From contig NZ_BMNZ01000005.1 in NCBI RefSeq assembly GCF_014646815.1, forward strand, positions 180,394-244,393: a stretch of 64,000 nt of DNA. Reading direction: 5' to 3'. How positions within the stretch are numbered: position 1 is the stretch's first letter; the number at the start of each line of letters is the position of its first letter. Positions 16,216 through 32,110 of the stretch are shown piece after piece. Origin of the DNA: Terrabacter tumescens (lineage in GTDB: Bacteria > Actinomycetota > Actinomycetes > Actinomycetales > Dermatophilaceae). The notes under the pieces are model-generated. The model did not search any database and had not been told where the DNA came from. It saw only the letters and a list, made by a program, of their open reading frames with translations. Both the position numbers and the translations under genes were made by a program.

Positions 16216-17526
16216 TCAGCGGTCGCGGGGCCGGCGCCAGCGGCCGGCTGCGATCTGGTCGCCGCCGACCCACACGCCACCCACGTCGGAGGTGGTGCCG
16301 AGGGCGAAGACCTTGGACAGCGCATCGTTGGCGGACGCGGCATTGGCCAGGCCGACGGCGAGCGGGTCGCCGGGCTCGGGCAGCACCCAGATGGCGTCGA
16401 ACTGCCGGCCCACCGACAGCACGCCCACCTCGTCGGCCAGCCCCAGGGCGTCGGCGCCGGCGGCCGTGGACAGCCAGAGCAGGTGCGCCGAGGTGAGCGG
16501 CAGGCCCTGCTCGCCGAGCAGCTGCTGCGCGAAGTAGGCCTGGAGGCCCTCCTTGAAGAGGGAGAAGCCGGTGCCCGCACCGACGTCGGAGCCCAGGGCC
16601 ACCCGCACCCCGGCCTCGACGTGCCGACGCAGGGGGAACAGGCCGCTGCCGAGCGCTGCGTTGCTCGTGGGGCAGTGCGCGACCGCCGTCCCACGGCCCG
16701 CGAGGGTGGCCAGCTCCCGGTCGGTCGGGTGCACGTCGTGGGCCAGCACCGACCGCGGGGTGAGCAGGCCGTGCCGGTCGTAGGTGTCGACGTAGGCCGC
16801 ACCGTCGAAAAGGCTTGCGACCTCGCGGATCTCGTGGACGTTCTCGTTGACGTGCGAGGTGAAGAACGCGCCCGGCACCTCGGCGACGGTCTGCGCGCAG
16901 GACTCGAGGAGAGCGTCGCTCGCCGACAGGGAGAAACGCGGCGTCACGGCATACCTCAGGCGTCCCTTGCCGTGCCAGCGGTCGGCGAGCTCGCGTGACT
17001 CCGCCCGGGCGCGCTCCGGTGTGGTGAGGAGGGGTTCGGGCAGGAGGCGGTCGGACGTGACGAGCCCGGTCGTCACGCGCAGGCCCCACTGGTCGGCCGC
17101 CTCGAACATCGTGTCGACCGCCCCGGCGAAGTGCGCCCCGAAGACGAGGGCGGTCGTCGTCCCGGCGTCGACGAGCCCGGACACGAAGTCGTGCGCGACG
17201 CCGCGCGCGTGGTCGACGTCCGCCAGACGCATCTCCTCCGGCAGCGCGCACTGGTCGAGCCAGTCGAGCAGCGGCAGACCGAGTCCACCGATGATGCGCA
17301 CCTGCGGGAAGTGGACGTGGGTGTCGACCATCCCCGGCAGCAGGATCCCCTCGCGCAGGTTGAGGACCGGCTCGTCGGGATGCGTTGACCGGAGGGTCTC
17401 GAACGGTCCACGCGCGGTGATGACGCCCTGCTCGACGAGGAGCCCGCAGTCGTCGTCCGAGCGCAGCCGGCCCCCGGTGAAGGGGTTGGCCGGAGTGTCG
17501 AGGACGGACGCCCTGAAGAGCGTCAC
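16216..17526 (-). CDS. guaD: Guanine deaminase
   Basis: A 436-residue amidohydrolase that converts guanine to xanthine and ammonia in the cytoplasm. Metal-binding and active-site motifs are complete and in order: DTHVHFPQV (HxH), FTSHVNENVHEI, VLAHDVHPTD, CPTSNAALGSG and LGSDVGAGTGFSLF with the metal Asp. The pattern matches guanine deaminase rather than other cytosine- or adenosine-type deaminases. The GTG start at 17526 overlaps the xdhC stop (GTGA), so it is the last gene of the xanthine dehydrogenase operon; xanthine produced here is the substrate of the enzyme encoded just upstream. The C-terminus (WRRPRDR) is basic and the motif set shows no damage. Confidence 0.92.
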   Translation of the reverse strand: MTLFRASVLDTPANPFTGGRLRSDDDCGLLVEQGVITARGPFETLRSTHPDEPVLNLREGILLPGMVDTHVHFPQVRIIGGLGLPLLDWLDQCALPEEMRLADVDHARGVAHDFVSGLVDAGTTTALVFGAHFAGAVDTMFEAADQWGLRVTTGLVTSDRLLPEPLLTTPERARAESRELADRWHGKGRLRYAVTPRFSLSASDALLESCAQTVAEVPGAFFTSHVNENVHEIREVASLFDGAAYVDTYDRHGLLTPRSVLAHDVHPTDRELATLAGRGTAVAHCPTSNAALGSGLFPLRRHVEAGVRVALGSDVGAGTGFSLFKEGLQAYFAQQLLGEQGLPLTSAHLLWLSTAAGADALGLADEVGVLSVGRQFDAIWVLPEPGDPLAVGLANAASANDALSKVFALGTTSDVGGVWVGGDQIAAGRWRRPRDR

Positions 17527-18402
17527 GACCGTGCGTCCTGGGCGGCCCGCTCGCGGTCGATGGTGGCGAGCAGGTCGGCGGCGACGGCGACGGCGATCAC
17601 GGCCGGGCTCTTGCCCGCGAGACCGGGGAGGCCGATGGGCGACTGGATCCGACGCAGCGCATCCGCTGAATGGCCTTCTGCCGCAAGGCGTTGCTCGAAG
17701 CGCCGCCACTTGGCCGACGACCCGATCAAGCCTGTCGACCCGAGATGGGAGCACCTCAGGGCGGCGTCGCACAGGGCGACGTCCTCGGCGTGGTCGTGGG
17801 TCATGACGAGCACGTGGGTGCCCCGCGGGACCTGCCCGAGCACCAGCTCGGGGACCGGCGCGTGATGGAGGTGGATGCGCGCCACGGCGTCGCCCAGACC
17901 CGCGAGGCGGTCCGGCTCGAAACGGTCCTTGCGACCGTCGACGAGGTGCAGCTCGAGGTCGTGGCGGCTGAGGATGCGCGCGAGCTCGGTCCCGACGTGG
18001 CCGAGGCCGAAGACGGCGACCGAGGGGACGACGGCGAGCGGCTCGAGCAGGACGGACACCTCACCGCCGCAGCACTGCTGGCCGTGCTCGACAAGGGCGT
18101 GCTCGTTGAGGGAGAGCGACAGCTGGGTCGGCGCGGCATCAGCGGCGCCACTCCCGGCGCCACCCCCGGCGCCACCCCCGGCGCCACCCCCGGCGCCGAG
18201 CGTCCCGAGCAGCTCCCGCGCGCGATCGACGGCGGTGGCCTCGAGGTTGCCGCCCCCGATGCTGCCCCAGGTGCGCTCGGCGGAGACGACCATCTTGGCG
18301 CCGGCCTCCCGGGGCGCGTGCCCCCGCACCGACACGAGGGTGACGAGGACGCCGGGCACCCGATCCACCCGGAGCTGCTCGACCGCTGCGAGCCAGTGCA
18401 CG

Positions 18403-18410
<8 letters not shown>
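17523..18410 (-). CDS. xdhC: Xanthine dehydrogenase accessory protein XdhC
   Basis: A 295-residue maturation factor that inserts the sulfurated molybdenum cofactor into xanthine dehydrogenase. The N-terminal XdhC/CoxI domain contains GSIGGGNLEA and the Cys pair in QCCGGEV; the C-terminal Rossmann domain begins VAVFGLGHVGTELARIL. I place the start at GTG 18410 (MADVHWLAAVEQLRV), which overlaps the end of xdhB by eight bases. Between the two halves lies a Gly-Ala tract (GAGGGAGGGAGGGAG) encoded by four direct repeats of CCCGGCGCCAC at about 18150-18200, a likely slippage-prone linker. The downstream gene overlaps as GTGA. All four genes of the operon are tightly coupled. Confidence 0.9.
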
Positions 18411-22354
<3,944 letters not shown>

Positions 22355-22468
22355 CCGCAAGTCCCGTCGTCCACGGACCCATGATGCACCGCCGGGTGCC
22401 GCAGTCGATCAGGGTTGGACACGCAGGTGGACCGAAGAAGCCTGCCCCACTCGGCCCGGATGGACTAG

Positions 22469-23999: not shown

Positions 24000-24734
24000 T
24001 CAGACCGTTCCGCGGCGGGTCGCGACCGACTGCGAGCCCGGAGAGGTCCCGAGGTCCATCGTGTGCGCGTGACGCACGACCTTCGTGGCGAGGTAGTGCG
24101 CGTTCGCGTCGGACAGGTGCACGCCCGTGGGCACCCGGTGCGCGACGGTGACTCCGAGCCGGCGCAGCTGCTCGGCCTTGTCGGGGTTGTTGCTGAGCAG
24201 CGCGACGCGGTCGACGCCGAGCGCGCCGAGCATCTGGGCGGCCACGGTGTAGTCCCGCTCGTCCTCCCCGTAGCCGAGGGCGACGTTGGCCTCGTAGGTG
24301 TCGAGCCCGCGGTCCTGGAGCACGTATGCGTCGAGCTTGGGATACAGCCCGATGCCGCGGCCCTCCTGCCGGAGGTAGAGGAGGAAACCTCCCGACGCGT
24401 CGAGCCGTTCGACGGACTCGCGCAGCTGGGCACCGCAGTCGCAGCGCTGGCTGCCGAAGACGTCACCGGTCAGGCACTCGCTGTGCAGCCGGGTCGGTGT
24501 CGCGCCGGCGTCGCACACCGTCGGTCCGGGTGGCGCTGCCCGCTCGCCGAGCCCGAGCGCGAGGTGCTCGCGACCGTCGGCGAGGCCCTCGAAGGTGAAG
24601 ACGCGCGCCGTCGTCGTGAAGCCGTCCGCGAAGGCCAGCGGCACGAGCACGTGGGTGCGGATCCGGGCCGGCGCGGGACCTGCACCCAGCGGGGCCCTCT
24701 CCCCGGCAACGTCCTTCCTCATCCCGCTGCTCAT
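24000..24734 (-). CDS. ribA: GTP cyclohydrolase II
   Basis: A 244-residue stand-alone GTP cyclohydrolase II without a fused RibB domain. It opens the imidazole ring of GTP to give the pyrimidine precursor of riboflavin or of pterin-like products. Zinc ligands lie in GDVFGSQRCDCGAQL, the catalytic loop is LRQEGRGIGL, and the Tyr equivalent to E. coli RibA Tyr105 is kept (KLDAYVLQD); replacement of that Tyr is known to change the product in a Streptomyces paralogue. The ATG at 24734 overlaps the upstream reductase stop (ATGA). Because it is the last gene of a cluster with a 6-pyruvoyl-tetrahydropterin-synthase homologue, lipid genes and a RibD-like reductase, I infer a dedicated paralogue rather than the housekeeping riboflavin enzyme. 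Confidence 0.88.
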   Translation of the reverse strand: MSSGMRKDVAGERAPLGAGPAPARIRTHVLVPLAFADGFTTTARVFTFEGLADGREHLALGLGERAAPPGPTVCDAGATPTRLHSECLTGDVFGSQRCDCGAQLRESVERLDASGGFLLYLRQEGRGIGLYPKLDAYVLQDRGLDTYEANVALGYGEDERDYTVAAQMLGALGVDRVALLSNNPDKAEQLRRLGVTVAHRVPTGVHLSDANAHYLATKVVRHAHTMDLGTSPGSQSVATRRGTV

Positions 24735-25426
24735 GGCGCCTCCCGGAAGCGGGGCGACAGGGCATAGCGCAGGAGCACGACGTCCCCGATCTGGCGCACC
24801 TCGGCGAGAGTCGCTCGCCTCCCCGGGTGCCACGGGTAGCGACCGTCGCCCACGAAGCGGCAGGCGGCCGAGTCCCCGACGAAGAAGGGCGCCACGACGA
24901 GTTGCAGCTCGTCGGCGAGGTCGTCGGTCAGCATCTGCGTGTGCACCGAGCCGCCGCCCTCCACCATGAGCCGCCCCACGCCGCGCTCGCCGAGGTCCTC
25001 GCACACGCGGCGCATCGTCGCGGGGTGCTCCACACCGACGACCGTGGCCACCGCGCCGAGCCGCGCACGCAGGGTGGGCACAGCGCTGCTGGGCGCATAG
25101 ACCATCTTGTCGGCGCCGTCGGGCGCGAAGAACGCTGCGCCACAGTCGAGCCCGGCCTCGCGGGTCACCGTCACCTTGAGCGGCGACGGCGCCAGACCGC
25201 GTGCGACCCGTGCTGCCCGCCGCTCCGCCGACCGGACCAGCAACCGCGGGTCGTCGCGGCGGATCGTCGTGGCACCGACGAGGATCGCGTCGCTCGCGGC
25301 GCGCTCCTCGTCGACGCGGTCGAAGTCGGCGTCGTTGGACAGCAGGAGCCGCGTCGGGGTCGCCGCACTGAGGTAGCCGTCGATCGACATGCCGCAGCTG
25401 AGCAGGGTGTAGGGGCGGTCAGCCAC
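24731..25426 (-). CDS. RibD C-terminal/dihydrofolate-reductase-like reductase
   Basis: A 231-residue NADPH-dependent reductase of the RibD C-terminal family. It starts at GTG 25426 behind GGAGGGGG. Motifs are SCGMSIDGYLSA at the N-terminus, DAILVGATTIRRDDPRLLVR, and GVGRLMVEGGGSVHTQML, the substrate/NADPH loop of this fold. It lacks the deaminase domain of RibD. Such proteins reduce ribosylamino-pyrimidines, and homologues work with GTP cyclohydrolase II. It overlaps ribA by four bases and the upstream membrane gene by eight bases, so the three are coupled. Likely job: reduction of the product formed by the adjacent RibA. Confidence 0.85.
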   Translation of the reverse strand: MADRPYTLLSCGMSIDGYLSAATPTRLLLSNDADFDRVDEERAASDAILVGATTIRRDDPRLLVRSAERRAARVARGLAPSPLKVTVTREAGLDCGAAFFAPDGADKMVYAPSSAVPTLRARLGAVATVVGVEHPATMRRVCEDLGERGVGRLMVEGGGSVHTQMLTDDLADELQLVVAPFFVGDSAACRFVGDGRYPWHPGRRATLAEVRQIGDVVLLRYALSPRFREAP

Positions 25427-26384
25427 GTGCGACCCCCTCCGCGCAGGCGAGGTCTGCCGACCTCGTCCGGTCACGCCGACCCAGCGTCAGCACCAGCGCT
25501 CCCGGCAAGCTGGAGACGAGCGCCATCACGCCGTAGACGACAGCCGTGCCGACCCCGGCAGCGGCGCCGAGCCCTGCTGCACCGAAGGCCCAGGCCGCCG
25601 CACCTTCGCGCGGCCCCCACCCGGCGACGTTGAGGGGCAGGCTCATCGCCACGAGCACGACGAGCGCCAGTGGCAACAGGCGGGTGACGGGTGCGGTCAC
25701 TCCCGCGGCGCGTGCCGCCACGACGAAGGTCGCTGCGTGCCCGACCACGACGGCCGCGGAGCTCCCGATCACACCCGGCCACGTGCGCCGTCCCAGCACG
25801 CCACTGCGGAGGTCTGCCGACACGGCCCGCACCATGCGTACGACCCGAGAGTCCGGGCCGTGGGTCCGCCGGCCGACCACAAAGGCTCCGATTGTGACGC
25901 TGGCGAGCCCTGCCACGACGCAGACGACGAGGACGCCTGTGCCGGAACGCATCTCGGGCGTGACGGGCACGAGGAGCAGCACGGTGCCGGTCACAGCGGC
26001 GAGGACGACCTGGCCGGCCGAGCGCTCCCACACGACCGAGCGCAGCCCACGTCCCAGGTCTCCGCCGTCCCGGCCGTGCCGGACGCCGCGGTGCACGTCA
26101 CCGAGCACCCCGCCGGGCAGGGTCACGTTGAGGAACTGGGACCGGTACGACTCCGACACGGCCGTGCGCAGCGTCAGCTCGGCACCGAGCCCGCGCGCCA
26201 CGAGCACCCAGCGCCACGCCCCGCAGACGGTCGTCACCAGGGCGATGGCCGCCGCGACCGCGACCGAACCCGCATCGAGGTGGCGCACGGCGTCGACGAA
26301 GGGGCCGGCCCCGACGCGCCAGACGAGGAACGCGACGATGCAGAGCCCCCCGACGGGGCTCAGCCACGACCGGTCGCGGTGCAT
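25419..26384 (-). CDS. LPG-synthase-type (UPF0104) integral membrane protein
   Basis: A 321-residue protein with seven or eight predicted membrane helices, matching the lysylphosphatidylglycerol synthase/UPF0104 membrane domain but without the cytosolic aminoacyl-transfer domain. Conserved segments are RWVLVARGLG, YRSQFLNVTLPGGVLGDVHR and LPLNVAGWGPREGAAAW. Members act as lipid flippases or lipid-handling proteins. I start at ATG 26384, which has GGAG just upstream, rather than a GTG 51 bases earlier. It overlaps the RibD-like gene by eight bases and follows the GT4 gene by 60 bases. Its company suggests that it moves or modifies the lipid-linked product of the cluster. Confidence 0.8.
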   Translation of the reverse strand: MHRDRSWLSPVGGLCIVAFLVWRVGAGPFVDAVRHLDAGSVAVAAAIALVTTVCGAWRWVLVARGLGAELTLRTAVSESYRSQFLNVTLPGGVLGDVHRGVRHGRDGGDLGRGLRSVVWERSAGQVVLAAVTGTVLLLVPVTPEMRSGTGVLVVCVVAGLASVTIGAFVVGRRTHGPDSRVVRMVRAVSADLRSGVLGRRTWPGVIGSSAAVVVGHAATFVVAARAAGVTAPVTRLLPLALVVLVAMSLPLNVAGWGPREGAAAWAFGAAGLGAAAGVGTAVVYGVMALVSSLPGALVLTLGRRDRTRSADLACAEGVARG

Positions 26385-26444
26385 CTGCTCCGACCTTTCT
26401 GCCAGGACCCCCGATGGTGAGGACGTCGGGGGCACGCATCGGGT

Positions 26445-27500
26445 TCAGGCGTCCCGTACCCCGACGAGCACGGCCGAGACCTGCTCCACGGTGCGCGCCC
26501 ACGACGACAGGTCCTGCCGGCGCCGTCGGGCCCGCCGCCGCAGCCGGTCCCGCTCGTCCGGGTCGGTCAGCCAGGACCGGAGCGCTGCCGCCAGGACGTC
26601 GGGCCGCCCGACCGGCACGAGAAGGCCGGCAGGCCCGTCTCCGGTGTGGCCGAGCGCCTCCGGCACCCCGCCGACATTGCTCGCGACCACCGGGACGCCG
26701 TGGGCCAGGGCCTCGGTGACGACCATCCCGAAGGTCTCGACGTGGGAGGGCAGCACGAGGAGGTCGGCGGCGGCATACGCCTCCTCGAGGGCGCTGCCGC
26801 GCAGCGCCCCGACGAGCGCCACCCGGTCGGCCAGGCCGGACCGGGCGAGGCGCTGGCGGAGGTCGGCGACCACGGCCGGTTCACGGTCCAGCGCCCCGGC
26901 CACGACGCACGACCACGACAGGTCGGCGACGAGCCCGAGCGCGGCAGCGAGGTCGGCGTGCCCCTTGTGCGCGGTGACGGCGGCGACGCAGAGCAGCCGA
27001 CCACCCTCGTGCGTGCCCTCCGACGCGGCGCCGCGCTCGGCACCCGGCTGGGCCACGTGCACGGCGTCGACGGCGAGGGCGTAGGTGTCGAGGAGCACCC
27101 CGCGCGTCCACTCGCTCGTCGTGACCACGGCCGAGGCGGCCAGGAGCACGTCCCGTTCGCCCTGCGCTGCAACGGGATCCGACAGACCCAGCGGGAGGTG
27201 GACGAGCACGACGAGGCGCACCCGCCCTACCTCCGGCACGAGCACCGGGGCAGCACAGGACGCGACGAGCCCGTCGACGAGGAGCAGACCACCCTCGGGC
27301 ACGGCGGCGACGACGCCCGCGAGCCGCTCGAGGGCCGCCGCGTCGGGTCGGGGCCACCCACCCGTCACCGGGCGCTCGGTCACCACCCACCCGGCGGCGC
27401 GGAGCCCGTCGAGGACCCGGCGGTCGTACGCGTTGCCACCGCTCACGCGGTCCGGGTCATCGATGTCGGCGGGCACGACGGCGTGGAGCTCCGGGAGCAC
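26445..27500 (-). CDS. GT4-family glycosyltransferase of the pterin/lipid cluster
   Basis: A GT-B glycosyltransferase of about 351 residues. The N-terminal part has HAVVPADIDDPDRVSGGNAY, the donor domain has AAVTAHKGHADLAAALG, and the EX7E motif is in SHVETFGMVVTEALAHG followed by GVPVVASNVGGVPE. The start is uncertain: GTG 27500 (MLPELHAVVPADIDD) agrees best with the usual N-terminus, but GTG 27560 or 27575 would give 20-25 more residues and overlap the preceding gene. It sits between the 6-pyruvoyl-tetrahydropterin-synthase homologue and the membrane protein on the same strand. The sugar donor and acceptor are unknown; a membrane lipid or a pterin are the obvious candidates from context. 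Confidence 0.82.
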   Translation of the reverse strand: MLPELHAVVPADIDDPDRVSGGNAYDRRVLDGLRAAGWVVTERPVTGGWPRPDAAALERLAGVVAAVPEGGLLLVDGLVASCAAPVLVPEVGRVRLVVLVHLPLGLSDPVAAQGERDVLLAASAVVTTSEWTRGVLLDTYALAVDAVHVAQPGAERGAASEGTHEGGRLLCVAAVTAHKGHADLAAALGLVADLSWSCVVAGALDREPAVVADLRQRLARSGLADRVALVGALRGSALEEAYAAADLLVLPSHVETFGMVVTEALAHGVPVVASNVGGVPEALGHTGDGPAGLLVPVGRPDVLAAALRSWLTDPDERDRLRRRARRRRQDLSSWARTVEQVSAVLVGVRDA

Positions 27501-27547
27501 CTCCCGACGCGCCTTCCCCGGCCCCTCCCCCTGCGCAGGCGCGTCCG

Positions 27548-27946
27548 TCAGAGGTCGCACTCGTAGGTCGCCCACGCGACGTGCGACTCGTGGAGCGTGA
27601 CGGCGAGAGCGGTCACCTGGCCCCGCGCCGAGCCGAGGTCTCCGGCCCGCACCCGCTCGGCCACCCGGTCCGCGACGTGGCGGGCCAGCACCTCCGTCGT
27701 GGTGTTGACCCCGGCGAAGGCCGGCTCGTCGTCGAGGTTGCGGTAGCCGAGGGCGCCGACGACCGCGTGGACGTGCTCCGTGGCGAGGCCGATGTCCACG
27801 AGGATGCCGTCGGCGTCGAGCTCGGGGCCCCGGAAGGTCACGTCGACGACGAAGGTGGCGCCGTGGAGCCGCTGGGCCGGTCCGAAGACCTCCCCCCGGA
27901 AGCTGTGGGCGACCATCATGTGGTCCCGGACGGTGACGCTGAACAT
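27548..27946 (-). CDS. 6-pyruvoyl-tetrahydropterin synthase homologue with altered active site
   Basis: A 132-residue T-fold protein of the PTPS/QueD superfamily, recognisable by [32 protein letters not shown] and [17 protein letters not shown]. The active site differs from QueD and PTPS: the usual His-Gly-His zinc pair reads His-Gly-Ala, the catalytic Cys a few residues before it is missing (GPAQRLHG), and the Asp-His-His segment reads GYRNLDD. The first zinc His and the terminal Glu are kept. It may therefore bind a pterin but is unlikely to do the classical reaction. The gene begins 11 bases after the alcohol dehydrogenase stop. From memory, actinobacteria share closely similar proteins in the same gene order, so the changes appear fixed rather than decay. 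Confidence 0.8.
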
Positions 27947-27957
27947 GGGCTCCCCGC

Positions 27958-28950
27958 TCAGTCGGTGGCTCGGTAGGTGATCGTGTGGCAGACGGCGGGC
28001 AGCGACCCGTCGGCGAGGCGCTGCATCACCTCGGGCAGCTCGTCGAACGGCGAGTCGCCGGTGAGCAGCGCGTCGAAGGCCTCGTCGCGCAGCAGGTCGA
28101 GCGCCAGGGCCAGACGCTGGGCATACGTGTAGCGCGAGCGCCGCGCTGCGGCAACGGAACCCACCTGGCTGGCCCTGATGCGCAGCCGGGACGAGTGGAA
28201 CGACCCACCGAGCGACAGCTCGATTCGGCTGTCGCCGTACCAGCTGAGCTCGGTCACGGTGGCCTCGGGCGCGAGCAGGTCCAGCGAGAGCTGCAGACCG
28301 GCGCCCGTCGCGCTCGTGTGGACGACGAGGTCGTGGTCGCCGCGTGACGCCGCGAGGTCCTCCGGCCGCGCGAAGGCGACACCGAGCCGGGCGGCGATGT
28401 CGGCGCGGGTCGGGTCCACGTCGACGAGCGTCACGTGGCACCCGGGGATCCCGGCGAGCAGGCGGGCCACGCAGCAGCCCACCATCCCGGCACCGACCAC
28501 GGCGGCCCGGTCGCCGACCCGCGGCGCCGCATCCCACAGCGCGTTGACGGCCGTCTCGACGGTCCCCGCCAGCACGGCCCGGCGGGCGGGCACACCGTCG
28601 GGCACCACGACGACCGACTCGGCCGGCACGACGTAGGCCGTCTGGTGCGGGTGCAGGCAGAAGACGGTCCGCCCGACGAGCTCGGTCGGCCCCTGCTCCA
28701 CCGTGCCGACGCCGAGGTAGCCGTACTTCACCGGCGCGGGGAAGTTGCCCTCCTGGTGCGGCGCCCGCATGACCGAGTACTGGTCCTCTGGCACGGCCCC
28801 GCGGAAGACGAGCGTCTCCGTGCCCCGGCTGACGCCCGAGTGGAGGGCGCGCACCAGCACCTCACCATCCGCGGGGGCGGGCACGGCGACCGGGCGGATC
28901 TCGCCCCTGCCGGGCTCGACCACCCAGAACGCCCGCGCATCGGTGGACAC
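27958..28950 (-). CDS. Zinc-binding alcohol dehydrogenase family oxidoreductase
   Basis: A 330-residue medium-chain dehydrogenase and first gene of the minus-strand pterin/lipid operon. It begins at GTG 28950 ([14 protein letters not shown]). The N-terminal catalytic domain has [15 protein letters not shown] and [12 protein letters not shown]; the NAD(P) Rossmann domain has [17 protein letters not shown] and [12 protein letters not shown]. The classical Cys/His catalytic zinc residues are not all present, as in the sorbose/2-deoxy-scyllo-inosose-like and bacteriochlorophyllide-like subgroup. A TACTCT -10-like hexamer ends six bases before the start codon, so the transcript may be leaderless. 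Substrate unknown; context suggests oxidation of a sugar or side chain of the pterin/lipid product. Confidence 0.82.
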
Positions 28951-29034
28951 GCGACCAGAGTAGATCGGTGTCCGTGAACTGTGAGGGCAACGACGGCGTC
29001 CTTGGTTCGAACCCCAATCGGTGAGGTGGAGCAG

Positions 29035-29862
29035 GTGCGTCAGGTGATCCCTCCCGGCCCCCTCGTCGGGCCCGTGGCCGTGCTGACGCTGCTCGCCGTG
29101 CTGCAGGAATCGTCCACCGAAGGCCTCGGGGTCGAGGGATGGGCCGTCGGACTCGCCTGCGCCGCCGCGCTGGGCGGGCTCCTCGGGATCGGCCTGCAGC
29201 GCGCCGGGCGCCGGCACCTGACGCCGGCCGACCGGGTGACCCTGACGCGCGCCGTCCTCGCCTGTGGGGTCGCCGCGCTCGTCGCCGCGGGAGTCTCGGG
29301 CACGACGGTCTCGACGGCGGTGCTCGTCATCCTCGCCTCGGTCGCGCTCGTGCTCGACGCCGTGGACGGCCGGGTCGCGCGACGCACCGGGACCGTGCAC
29401 CCCTTCGGCGCCCGCTTCGACATGGAGACCGACGCCTTCCTCATCCTCGTGCTCGGCGTCCACGTCTCAGGCAGCCTCGGCTGGTGGGTTCTCGTCACCG
29501 GGGCCGCGCGCTACCTCCTCCTGCTCGTGACGGCCGCGGCCCGCTGGGCGCCGTGGTTGCGGGGTCAGGTGCCGGCCCGCCTGTGGCGCAAGGTGGTCGC
29601 GGCCTACCAGGGCATCGCGCTGACGGCCGTGACGTCCGGGGTCCTGCCGCAAGCGCTTGCCACCGTCGCCGTCGCCGCCGGCCTCGGACTGCTGGTCGTC
29701 TCGTTCGGGACCGAGGTCTCCACGCTCCGTCGTGGCTCCGTGACGCAGAGGACGTATGCCGTTCGCCCCCTGCCGAGCCCGCCTGCCCTGCCGTCGGGGG
29801 TGGTCACGGACCTGGCGTCCGCCCCCGTCGCGACCGCCCTCGACGTGCGTGCGCTCCCATGA
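29035..29862 (+). CDS. CDP-alcohol phosphatidyltransferase family membrane protein
   Basis: A membrane enzyme of about 275 residues that joins a diacylglycerol-phosphate moiety from a CDP-alcohol to a second alcohol. The full signature DGx2ARx8Gx3Dx3D is present (DAVDGRVARRTG, then G, ARF and the two metal Asp residues in RFDMETDAF). Six or so membrane helices are predicted. I start at GTG 29035 because GAGGTGGAG lies just upstream; GTG 28981 is an alternative adding 18 residues. The stop overlaps the start of the sulfatase-like gene (ATGA). It is divergent from the alcohol dehydrogenase gene and, with its partner, forms the lipid half of the cluster. Confidence 0.88.
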   Translation: MRQVIPPGPLVGPVAVLTLLAVLQESSTEGLGVEGWAVGLACAAALGGLLGIGLQRAGRRHLTPADRVTLTRAVLACGVAALVAAGVSGTTVSTAVLVILASVALVLDAVDGRVARRTGTVHPFGARFDMETDAFLILVLGVHVSGSLGWWVLVTGAARYLLLLVTAAARWAPWLRGQVPARLWRKVVAAYQGIALTAVTSGVLPQALATVAVAAGLGLLVVSFGTEVSTLRRGSVTQRTYAVRPLPSPPALPSGVVTDLASAPVATALDVRALP

Positions 29863-31628
29863 CGACAGAGCCAAAGGCCCCGTCGCAGACCTCGTCGCAG
29901 GCCTCGACGCAGGCCTCGACACAGACCTCGAGGCCGCGCCCCTCCCGGCGCTCGACGCGGCGCCGCGTCCTCGGTCACGTCCTCACCGCCGCAGCGGCAC
30001 TCCTCGTGTGGGTCGCCCTGACCGCGCCGATGCCGACGCTCGGCTGGTCGCCGACACCGCTGTCGCTGCTGCGCATCCCCGTCGAAGGGATCGTCGTCGT
30101 CGCTCTGCTCCTCGCCCTGCCCGGCGCCGTCGCCCGTTGGCTCGCGCTCTCGGTCGGGCTCGTGCTCGGGATCCTCCTCGTCGTGCGGGTCCTCGACACG
30201 GCCTTCCTCGACACGCTCTACCGCCCGTTCAACCCGCTGACGGACTGGCGCTACGCGGGGTCCGCCACGGAGCTGCTCGGCGACTCCGCCGGACCGGTCA
30301 CGGCGGTGCTGGCCGTCGTGGCCGCGGGCCTGCTCGTGGTCGGCATCCTCACGCTGACGCCCCTCGCCGCACAGCGGGTCGGGCGTCTCGTCCGCCGTCA
30401 CCGGCGAGCCGGGCTGCGCACCGTCGTGGCTGCGGCTGCGGTCTGGGCGGTCTGCGCGGTCCTCGGGATCCGCACGGCCCCGGACCTGCCCGTGGCCGCG
30501 TCGAGCGCGGGGTCGCTCGCAGCGCACGAGGTGACCTCGTTCCGGGACGGGGTCCGGGACCGGGAGGCCTTCGCCGCCCAGGTCCCCGTCGACGCCTACC
30601 GCGACTCCCCGCCCGGCGACCTCCTCACCGCCCTCCGGGGCAAGGACGTCGTCATCGTCTACGTCGAGAGCTACGGCCGCGTCGCGGTCGACGGGAGCCC
30701 TGACGTGGCAAGGGCGCTGACGGCCGGCACGAGCGCACTGGGCGCCTCGGGGTGGACCGCCCGCAGCGCCTGGCTGACGTCCCCGACCTTCGGTGGGGTG
30801 AGCTGGCTCGCGCACTCGACGCTCCAGTCCGGGCTCTGGGTGAGCAGCCAGCAGCGATATGACCAGCTGCTCGACACCGCATCGCCGGCGAGCAGCCCCG
30901 GCGAGTCGTCAGGCAGCACAGCGAGGTTCACCCTCGCGCGCGCCTTCTCCCGGGCCGGGTGGCGCACCGTCGACGTCATCCCGGCCAACCGTCGCGACTG
31001 GCCCGAAGGGAAGGCGTTCTACGGCTACGACGAGGTCTACGACGCCCGGACGCTCGGTTACGCCGGACCGGGCTTCGGCTACGCGCCGATGCCCGACCAG
31101 TTCACGCTCGCCGCCTTCGCCCGGCTCGAGCTCCAGCGCCACGTGCCGGGCGGCCGCCCGCCGGTCATGGCCGAGATCGACCTCGTCTCGAGCCACGTCC
31201 CTTGGGCGCCACTGCCACGACTCGTCGACTGGGGCAGCATCGGCAACGGCTCGGTCTTCCTCGAGCAGGCCGGGCAGGCGACGCCACGCGACGTCGTCTG
31301 GGCCACCACGCAGGGGGTGCGGACGGCATACGGCCAGACCGTGGCGTACTCCCTCGACAGCGTCGTGTCGTTCCTGCGGGCGACCCACGACGACAACCTC
31401 GTCGCCGTCGTGCTCGGTGACCACCAGCCGATCAGTCTCGTCTCCGGCGACCACGCGAGCCACGACGTGCCCGTCAGCGTCGTGACGCGCGACGCCGCCG
31501 TCCTCGACCGCATCGCCGGGTGGGGCTGGCAGGACGGCCTGCGTCCCGGGCCGGCCTCGTCGGTCTGGCCGATGGACCGCTTCCGCGACCGCTTCCTCAC
31601 GGCCTTCGGGAGCCGGCCCGGCGGCTGA
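29859..31628 (+). CDS. Membrane-anchored sulfatase/LtaS-like phosphotransferase
   Basis: A 589-residue membrane protein with a Ser/Thr/Gln-rich repeated N-terminal tail (SSQASTQASTQTS, from a short DNA repeat), four or five membrane helices to about residue 200, and an extracytoplasmic alkaline-phosphatase-superfamily domain. That domain has VVIVYVESYGR, a candidate nucleophile region LTSPTFGGVSWLAHS, DLVSSHVPWAPLP and the metal motif VVLGDHQPISLVSGDHA, the pattern seen in LtaS-type glycerol-phosphate or phosphoethanolamine transferases. Start ATG 29859 overlaps the preceding stop by four bases. Coupling to the CDP-alcohol phosphatidyltransferase suggests that it uses the head group of the lipid made by that enzyme. 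Confidence 0.82.
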   Translation: MTTEPKAPSQTSSQASTQASTQTSRPRPSRRSTRRRVLGHVLTAAAALLVWVALTAPMPTLGWSPTPLSLLRIPVEGIVVVALLLALPGAVARWLALSVGLVLGILLVVRVLDTAFLDTLYRPFNPLTDWRYAGSATELLGDSAGPVTAVLAVVAAGLLVVGILTLTPLAAQRVGRLVRRHRRAGLRTVVAAAAVWAVCAVLGIRTAPDLPVAASSAGSLAAHEVTSFRDGVRDREAFAAQVPVDAYRDSPPGDLLTALRGKDVVIVYVESYGRVAVDGSPDVARALTAGTSALGASGWTARSAWLTSPTFGGVSWLAHSTLQSGLWVSSQQRYDQLLDTASPASSPGESSGSTARFTLARAFSRAGWRTVDVIPANRRDWPEGKAFYGYDEVYDARTLGYAGPGFGYAPMPDQFTLAAFARLELQRHVPGGRPPVMAEIDLVSSHVPWAPLPRLVDWGSIGNGSVFLEQAGQATPRDVVWATTQGVRTAYGQTVAYSLDSVVSFLRATHDDNLVAVVLGDHQPISLVSGDHASHDVPVSVVTRDAAVLDRIAGWGWQDGLRPGPASSVWPMDRFRDRFLTAFGSRPGG

Positions 31629-31714: not shown

Positions 31715-32110
31715 ATGACCATGAGACTCCGAGTCGTGGGAGCGGCAGCACTGCTCGTCTCCGCGGGAGTGCACCTCTACCTGTGGTTCGACGGGGTGCG
31801 GAACCAGAGCGTGGGACCGATGTTCCTCGTCAACGTCGTCGCCGGCGTCGTCATCGCCGGCCTGCTGCTCCGTTGGCAGCACTGGGTGCCGGCGTTCCTC
31901 ACCGCCGGCTTCGGCGCGGCGACGCTGGGTGCCTTCGTCATCGCCTCCACCGTCGGGCTGCTCGGCGTGCACACGGTCTGGGCCGGCGGGTCGGTCTGGG
32001 CGGCGGCCGTCTCCGAGGTCGTGTGCATCGTCGTCGGCGGCCTCCTGCTGCTGCGCGCGCGCCCCGTGACACCGCAGCTGGCCCTTCCCGGCCGGCGGCA
32101 CGCCTCCTGA
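31715..32110 (+). CDS. Small four-helix membrane protein
   Basis: A 131-residue protein starting at ATG 31715 behind ACAGGAG. It is almost entirely made of four hydrophobic helices (first: VVGAAALLVSAGVHLYLWF), with a short C-terminal tail. The motif HLYLW in the first helix and the size resemble a widespread group of small actinobacterial membrane proteins of unknown function. It follows the sulfatase-like gene by 86 bases and could be read from the same or its own promoter. A perfect 11-bp inverted repeat lies 50 bases after its stop. I cannot propose a function. Confidence 0.6.
   Translation: MTMRLRVVGAAALLVSAGVHLYLWFDGVRNQSVGPMFLVNVVAGVVIAGLLLRWQHWVPAFLTAGFGAATLGAFVIASTVGLLGVHTVWAGGSVWAAAVSEVVCIVVGGLLLLRARPVTPQLALPGRRHAS

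Follow-up and report, generated by a model that had tools for sequence, protein, structure and literature searches.

A conserved actinobacterial gene cluster that may make a glycosylated, lipid-borne pterin-type compound from GTP

Gene content and arrangement of the cluster

We analysed a stretch of 64,000 nucleotides from Terrabacter tumescens (assembly GCF_014646815.1, contig NZ_BMNZ01000005.1, positions 180,394 to 244,393; the whole stretch is called the window below), which holds a cluster of eight genes combining riboflavin- and pterin-type enzymes with a glycosyltransferase and lipid-type membrane proteins (Table 1). The genome measures 4.7 Mb and is 99.98% complete, and all eight frames, lying within positions 24000-31628, are free of internal stops. 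Reading outward from a central gap, the minus strand carries the dehydrogenase, the PTPS homologue, the family-4 glycosyltransferase (GT4), the LPG_TM protein, the RibD_C protein and RibA, and the plus strand carries the CDP-alcohol phosphotransferase followed by the LtaS-like enzyme. Open frames and Pfam bear out the eight genes in two divergent operons of an earlier reading made from the letters alone (the sequence-only reading), and the one gene that it had left without a name is an MDR dehydrogenase by Pfam, alignment and fold. Its remark that most starts overlap holds for three of the six within-operon junctions at the chosen starts (-4, -8 and -4 bases) and would extend to a fourth with a GT4 start at 27575 or 27560 instead of 27500, while LPG_TM and GT4 are spaced by 60 bases and PTPS and dehydrogenase by 11. 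No Rfam element, such as an FMN riboswitch, was detected in the window at gathering scores.

Table 1. Features of the cluster and its margin (window positions)
Feature	Position	Strand	Basis
RibA-type GTP cyclohydrolase II, lineage I (244 aa)	24000..24734	-	Pfam PF00925 1.8e-51, residues, tree
RibD_C-family reductase (231 aa), no deaminase domain	24731..25426	-	Pfam 3.4e-33, NCBIfam
LPG_synthase_TM / flippase-like membrane protein (LPG_TM, 321 aa)	25419..26384	-	PF03706 8.2e-32
GT4 glycosyltransferase (351 aa from GTG 27500; open frame to 27575)	26445..27500	-	PF00534 (Glycos_transf_1) 3.5e-31
PTPS-IV type T-fold protein (132 aa), FGPAQ motif	27548..27946	-	Pfam PTPS 6.2e-25
MDR-superfamily dehydrogenase (330 aa)	27958..28950	-	Pfam ADH_zinc_N 1.1e-5, under family cut-off
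75-base gap between the divergent operons; presumed shared promoter region	28951..29025
CDP-alcohol phosphotransferase (278 aa from GTG 29026; open frame to 28981)	29026..29862	+	PF01066 (CDP-OH_P_transf) 6.4e-12
Membrane protein with C-terminal LtaS/LtaP/GacH-like phosphotransferase domain (589 aa)	29859..31628	+	predicted structure
Small protein adjoining the LtaS-like gene, possible accessory	31715..32110	+	without Pfam match; family in 9 loci including the window

Conservation and co-occurrence of the cluster genes

Relatives were taken from a GTDB genome scan as the best 80 loci among at least 594 stretches, of which 581 encode some PTPS relative, distant ones counted, a sample that leans to close relatives and in which 22 of the 80 loci are shorter than 20 kb. 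Besides PTPS, by which the loci were selected (80 of 80), the nearby genes include GT4 in 80, the dehydrogenase in 78, LPG_TM in 77, the CDP-alcohol transferase in 68, RibA in 67, RibD_C in 60, the LtaS-like enzyme in 31 and a creatininase-family gene in 21; an S-adenosylmethionine (SAM) methyltransferase is also common (67 of 80) and is absent from the window version. When neighbouring genes were clustered over 101 loci, nine families occurred in at least 32 loci, all of them cluster genes; the next family occurs in 25 loci and resembles an ABC-type ATPase by eye, and the remaining families, which were named only in part, reach 11 loci at most. By our gene calling, with Pfam on L174, L176, L115 and L178 (L numbers denote loci and G numbers genomes), the CDP-alcohol transferase and the LtaS-like enzyme form a single frame in 9 loci, and RibA and RibD_C in 3. 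The arrangement is not due to chance and recurs in relatives, the cluster being found in at least nine named families. One of the fusions, a RibA-RibD_C protein in L178 (G240:C170, 1-5308), faces a dehydrogenase, a distant PTPS, a GT4 and a HAD-family hydrolase; together these form the second cluster of that genome, again divergent. A further SAM methyltransferase lies nearby in L176, L177, L181 and L182, and an acyltransferase-3 membrane protein in some of them.

Genome-wide profiles were computed for 148 genomes drawn from the class, 21 of which have PTPS (thresholds: PTPS 1e-10, dehydrogenase 1e-40, LtaS-like 1e-10, CDP-alcohol transferase 1e-20, RibD_C 1e-30). Genomes with a match were also PTPS genomes in 21 of 22 cases for the dehydrogenase, 20 of 21 for the CDP-alcohol transferase, 17 of 18 for the LtaS-like enzyme and 20 of 34 for RibD_C (one-sided Fisher values 1e-24 to 1e-14, relatedness ignored). 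The co-occurrence of lipid genes with pterin genes expected from the sequence-only reading was thus not refuted: the CDP-alcohol transferase is present in 20/21 and the LtaS-like enzyme in 17/21 PTPS genomes, against 1/127 each in the others. The lone genome without a PTPS match that has both is G240, whose contig (L179) begins inside GT4 and carries the LtaS-like, CDP-alcohol transferase, RibD_C, LPG_TM and methyltransferase genes. Linkage is not constant, as all 6 PTPS genomes of genus g6 have the LtaS-like gene and the 8 copies inspected (of 9) have no other cluster gene near; we infer that this genus is Streptomyces because the cluster of G161 is identical to that of S. fructofermentans.

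The PTPS homologue and the dehydrogenase

The PTPS homologue is the orthologue of SCO6650 (PDB 3d7j; 195.9 bits, E 2.4e-57), a protein of solved structure labelled uncharacterized in the PDB. Among 88 aligned near relatives, the PTPS catalytic Cys and the third zinc His are both replaced by Ala in 87 (one gap), and the Asp-His pair is lost in all 88, with Tyr at its His position. By these residues the window protein is not a PTPS/QueD enzyme, as the catalytic Cys, the Asp-His pair and the three zinc His are not all in place. Glu120, the residue by which PTPS holds the 2-amino-4-oxo ring, is retained in all 88, the window included. The FGPAQ motif occurs in the window and in 86 of the 88 near relatives (the exceptions being a truncated row and FGPAR) and in none of 13 distant PTPS rows. 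FGPAQ is given as the signature of PTPS-IV in a 2017 network, with PF00925 and PF01872 as neighbours (PMC5445326), and by this signature the window protein belongs to PTPS-IV. The neighbourhood is thus already in print; the PTPS-IV passages of that paper give no product and label PF00925 as GTP cyclohydrolase I. A dehydrogenase-PTPS-GT4 set with 70% PTPS identity also stands on a 3 kb contig of an alphaproteobacterial record (L120, Inquilinus limosus MP06), where transfer or contamination is possible.

In the MDR dehydrogenase the usual Cys and His zinc ligands were not seen by eye on 19 aligned sequences; an invariant Glu132 in the same sequences may correspond to the third zinc ligand in polyol dehydrogenases.

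Two front ends and the riboflavin genes

GTP cyclohydrolase II residues are well kept among 115 RibA rows, the window included (zinc Cys in 115/115, active-site Arg in 114/115), and the alignment shows that window RibA retains the zinc cysteines and a Tyr at the E. coli Tyr105 position. One row shorter than 150 aa was dropped for the tree, whose 114 rows comprise 84 locus rows, including L048, which is not a PTPS-IV cluster, and 30 rows from a genome search, including L161, a repeat of the L062 cluster copy. Tyr versus Met at this position is what we take to be the marker of RibA proteins forming 2,5-diamino-6-ribosylamino-4(3H)-pyrimidinone 5'-phosphate (APy) versus FAPy. The non-Tyr mark of FAPy-forming, SCO6655-type enzymes is absent from window RibA, which is predicted to give APy. 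All 30 genome-search rows, nearly all housekeeping, have Tyr. The tree separates lineage I (Tyr: window, Micromonospora, Nocardioides, Actinoplanes) and lineage II (Met, His or Leu: Streptomyces, Actinomadura, Pseudonocardia and one further family), both apart from the housekeeping copies; the nearest relatives of window RibA are in Terrabacter, Terracoccus and Humibacillus of Intrasporangiaceae. A third group, of RibA-RibD_C fusions, falls with some housekeeping copies, on long branches flagged unsure by the program.

A creatininase-family gene is present in 30/30 lineage II clusters and in 0/54 other locus rows (53 Tyr and 1 Ser in a degenerate fusion), some of whose contigs end early. The Met/His/Leu RibAs are one clade (support 96/88), and the idea of many independent covariations between creatininase and the RibA residue was dropped for this reason. 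On a tree of PTPS, dehydrogenase and GT4, the front-end type needs 4 changes (minimum 2), with fewer forced by well-supported branches; this is a single FastTree tree with flagged long branches, from which L039-L050 and loci without all three genes were excluded. Work by Spoonamore et al. from 2006 reportedly found that SCO6655, a Met-variant GTP cyclohydrolase II of Streptomyces coelicolor, stops at FAPy. In archaea FAPy is deformylated by ArfB, a creatininase-family protein. On the natural reading, both front ends would supply APy, either directly or as FAPy followed by a creatininase-family deformylase. SCO6655 is listed under riboflavin metabolism (PMC2853524), and a Streptomyces GTP cyclohydrolase II paper is cited by PMC3509567.

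The RibD_C protein has an archaeal APy reductase as its best NCBIfam model, with a score under the model cut-off. No RibD-type deaminase domain was found by Pfam among the window cluster proteins, and the protein is predicted to reduce the ribosyl to a ribityl chain. In 12 of 12 tested genomes whose cluster is without RibD_C, a cluster-type RibD_C lies elsewhere (48-65% identity), against no match better than 1e-9 in the 5 PTPS-less genomes of the same test; the distant match in G258 contains one in-frame stop. In five of six Streptomyces the distant RibD_C adjoins a Tyr-type RibA, as a separate divergent pair far from the cluster (L195-L199).

The second PF00925 protein of the window genome is a RibBA with DHBP synthase, adjoining lumazine synthase and riboflavin synthase outside the cluster, so that the cluster ribA is not the sole copy, a point which the sequence-only reading had singled out as a check. 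Matches to PF00925 in 29 other genomes number at least two in 24 and one in 5, the latter being four outgroup genomes, with a cluster lacking RibA, and Intrasporangium flavum. A separate housekeeping ribA is therefore not universal among the genomes.

Outgroup clusters

The outgroup is one distant family of the phylum, with 9 of its 12 genomes that have a PTPS match examined (L039-L047). The set there consists of RibD_C, dehydrogenase, PTPS (with FGPA and an intact HGH, without the Cys) and GT4. A FolB (dihydroneopterin aldolase) gene lies within 3 kb of the cluster in 9/9, as the only FolB match in 8 and, in the one genome with two, as the stronger, and FolE lies elsewhere in 9/9; the position of FolB hints at dihydropterin chemistry. 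In L040 an acyltransferase-family gene follows FolB. The window genome itself has a second GTP cyclohydrolase I (FolE) match at G000:C6:138191-138697, away from the FolE and FolB on C4.

The lipid-type proteins

Searches with the LtaS-like protein gave nothing in Pfam or NCBIfam at 0.001 and no matching sequence in the PDB at E 1. An AlphaFold model built from a 28-sequence alignment (pLDDT 86) has LtaP as its best Foldseek match (E 2.7e-10, TM 0.51 on target). VIA-align gave LtaS, LtaP and GacH Z scores of 21.6 to 20.2 (root-mean-square deviation 3.2-4.7 over 262-286 residues, 12-17% identity); a Vibrio alkaline-phosphatase-superfamily protein falls in the same range (20.6), and the EptA, EptC and MCR enzymes come next, from 19.7. 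As modelled, the protein has an alkaline-phosphatase-type fold of the LtaS/LtaP/GacH class with metal-site Glu and Asp-His, which bears out an LtaS-like guess made from the letters; since EptA, EptC and MCR score nearly equally, the transferred group may be one of several. Glu270, Ser315, Trp381, His446, Asp521 and His522 are invariant in 28/28 aligned sequences, and Ser315 may be the nucleophile, judging from its spacing relative to the LtaS Thr. The CDP-alcohol transferase motif DGxxAR(x7-9)GxxxDxxxD is present in 63/63 aligned members, the window included.

Proposed pathway

From the computed gene content, conservation, co-occurrence, residues and folds, we tentatively propose, at a little under even confidence, that the cluster turns GTP into a pterin-type or 2-amino-4-oxo-pyrimidine head group, adds a sugar to it and anchors it on a membrane phospholipid; every reaction in this pathway is conjectural, above all step 3 and the lipid of step 5. 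In step 1, RibA would open GTP to APy, and in relatives with a Met, His or Leu RibA the product would be FAPy, deformylated by the creatininase-family hydrolase. In step 2 the RibD_C protein would turn the ribosyl into a ribityl chain, with the 2-amino group retained because the cluster has no deaminase. Homology and replacement by unrelated lineages make the formation of APy very probable and the reduction only slightly less so. In step 3 the dehydrogenase and the PTPS-IV protein would remodel the ribityl intermediate: the C2' hydroxyl could be oxidised, which together with step 2 would amount to an Amadori shift, and the T-fold protein could then close a 7,8-dihydropterin ring. Such a ring closure is a chemical guess, and we hold it to be somewhat doubtful. 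In step 4 GT4 would attach a sugar, which the constancy of GT4 makes probable, with the methyltransferase also at hand in many relatives. In step 5 the CDP-alcohol transferase would attach a phosphatidyl group to a hydroxyl of the side chain or the sugar, LPG_TM would bring the resulting lipid to the other side of the membrane, and outside the cell the LtaS/LtaP-like enzyme would add phosphoglycerol or a similar group; co-occurrence and gene fusion tip the balance slightly towards attachment of the head group to lipid. As to the head group offered by the sequence-only reading, the pterin option stands and a deaminated pyrimidine has become less likely with the lack of a deaminase domain.

A bolder version, which we consider rather unlikely, is that Actinomycetota widely share a membrane lipid of a new class, a glycophospholipid with a pterin or ribityl-pyrimidine head, made independently of GTP cyclohydrolase I, with RibD_C reduction and polyol-type oxidation replacing the Amadori step and a remodelled T-fold protein closing the ring. 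If the pathway proposed above is right, a membrane molecule not yet described would be made from GTP in common soil and antibiotic-producing actinobacteria, among them Micromonospora, Streptomyces, Nocardioides and Terrabacter. The pathway would also explain why Streptomyces keeps a FAPy-making cyclohydrolase II, with the likely deformylase encoded next door, give SCO6650 a pathway, and revise the assignment of PTPS-IV to F420 in bacteria like that of the window. The sequence-only reading called the product undescribed, and this agrees with the PTPS-IV passages cited above; it is the neighbourhood of PTPS-IV, PF00925 and PF01872 that was published before. A literature search, with most subscription journals outside its reach, turned up neither the membrane module nor the creatininase link nor a product.

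Several observations weigh against the lipid-borne pterin. RibD_C is also present in 14/127 genomes without a PTPS match (including G240, which holds the cluster), and Intrasporangium flavum shows PF00925 only as the cluster copy. Since the lineage II RibAs form one clade, the creatininase link counts as one evolutionary event and not thirty. Five of the six Streptomyces have a Met-type cluster RibA together with the Tyr-type RibA that adjoins the distant RibD_C, and this makes the division into two routes less clear-cut. The fold search with the dehydrogenase returned generic MDR enzymes and favoured no single substrate. Homologues of LPG_TM, the CDP-alcohol transferase and the LtaS-like enzyme were not found in the nine outgroup clusters within the stretch read. 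The LtaS-like gene is missing from 4/21 PTPS genomes (G008, G229, G258, G282) and the CDP-alcohol transferase from one, G258, which has RibA, creatininase, methyltransferase, GT4, PTPS and dehydrogenase and no match to the three lipid-type genes, so the front half can stand without them.

Alternative explanations

The last two points suit an alternative which we regard as fairly unlikely, a soluble glycosylated pterin or pyrimidine (a cofactor, pigment or secreted metabolite), with LPG_TM and the CDP-alcohol transferase/LtaS-like pair serving export or a parallel lipid. The outgroup core of RibD_C, dehydrogenase, PTPS and GT4 without the three lipid-type homologues, the front half of G258, the four PTPS genomes lacking the LtaS-like gene and the pterin glycosides made by family-4 glycosyltransferases elsewhere all agree with it. 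It has to face the distribution of the CDP-alcohol transferase (20/21 PTPS genomes versus 1/127 others) and the co-occurrence of the LtaS-like gene even where unlinked.

The same lipid-type proteins (an LtaS/LtaP/GacH fold, GT4, CDP-alcohol transferase and LPG_TM) could instead make a glycolipid resembling lipoteichoic acid, with the pterin-type genes as passengers or as the source of a regulator. This is improbable, as the dehydrogenase (78/80) and GT4 (80/80) are steadier than the CDP-alcohol transferase (68) and the LtaS-like gene (31), and the outgroup has the pterin-type genes without the lipid-type ones. An equally improbable product is a nucleoside-type secondary metabolite such as a deazapurine or pteridine antibiotic: PTPS/QueD homologues do occur in deazapurine clusters, but no QueE-like radical SAM or FolE domain was found among the eight window proteins (neighbours in relatives were scanned in part), and at least nine named families is a broader range than is usual for an antibiotic.

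Redundant riboflavin supply from duplicated ribA and ribD, suggested by the homology of RibA and RibD_C and by Intrasporangium flavum with its cluster PF00925 copy only, is very improbable and was rejected. By Pfam, RibD_C and GTP cyclohydrolase II are the only riboflavin-type domains among the eight proteins; a deaminase and a DHBP synthase domain were not found there, nor were lumazine synthase and riboflavin synthase, which are grouped with RibBA elsewhere, and GT4, LPG_TM and the CDP-alcohol transferase are constant company of the cluster.

Deazaflavin cofactor F420 synthesis also starts from a ribityl-pyrimidine. A role of PTPS-IV in it, stated for archaea from unpublished work in PMC5041015 and in keeping with FO synthase (CofH) matches over the cut-off in 15/22 cluster-bearing and 6/6 outgroup genomes searched, is scarcely credible here and was rejected: it is contradicted for the window cluster by the missing FO synthase of the window genome (best TIGR03551 match 35.7 bits versus a cut-off of 374.1), with six more of the 22 genomes below the cut-off (G008, G225, G240, G246, G260, G301) and FO synthase present in 8/15 genomes without PTPS-IV.

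Adjacent genes

Just downstream of the cluster, at window positions 16216-22360, lies a xanthine-dehydrogenase-type operon, with XdhC and an amidohydrolase assigned by Pfam and the other subunits by eye. The gene family of window gene 20879 is also found near the cluster in 5 relatives.

Comparison with known systems

Bacterial pterin glucosides, as made by the tetrahydrobiopterin glucosyltransferase, combine a pterin with GT4 as the cluster does; unlike the cluster, they derive from GTP cyclohydrolase I and an active PTPS, without lipid genes. With LtaS, LtaP and GacH the window LtaS-like protein has in common the fold and the invariant Glu, His and Asp-His positions, and differs in having Ser rather than Thr where the nucleophile is proposed to be, no Pfam match and a CDP-alcohol transferase as partner. 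The SCO6655-type GTP cyclohydrolase II shares Met at the same position with the Streptomyces clusters, whereas window RibA, a member of another lineage, has Tyr there. The PTPS-IV subfamily of COG0720 (PMC5041015, PMC5445326) shares FGPAQ and the PF00925 and PF01872 neighbours with the window cluster; the PTPS-IV passages of these papers do not mention an actinobacterial product, the membrane module or creatininase, and the F420 assignment does not fit the window genome. The archaeal start of riboflavin synthesis (PMC13028884) uses GTP cyclohydrolase III and a formamide hydrolase, and resembles the cluster in that FAPy is formed and then deformylated and that reduction precedes any deamination, but the cluster cyclohydrolase is of the GTP cyclohydrolase II type and the later riboflavin genes lie outside the cluster.

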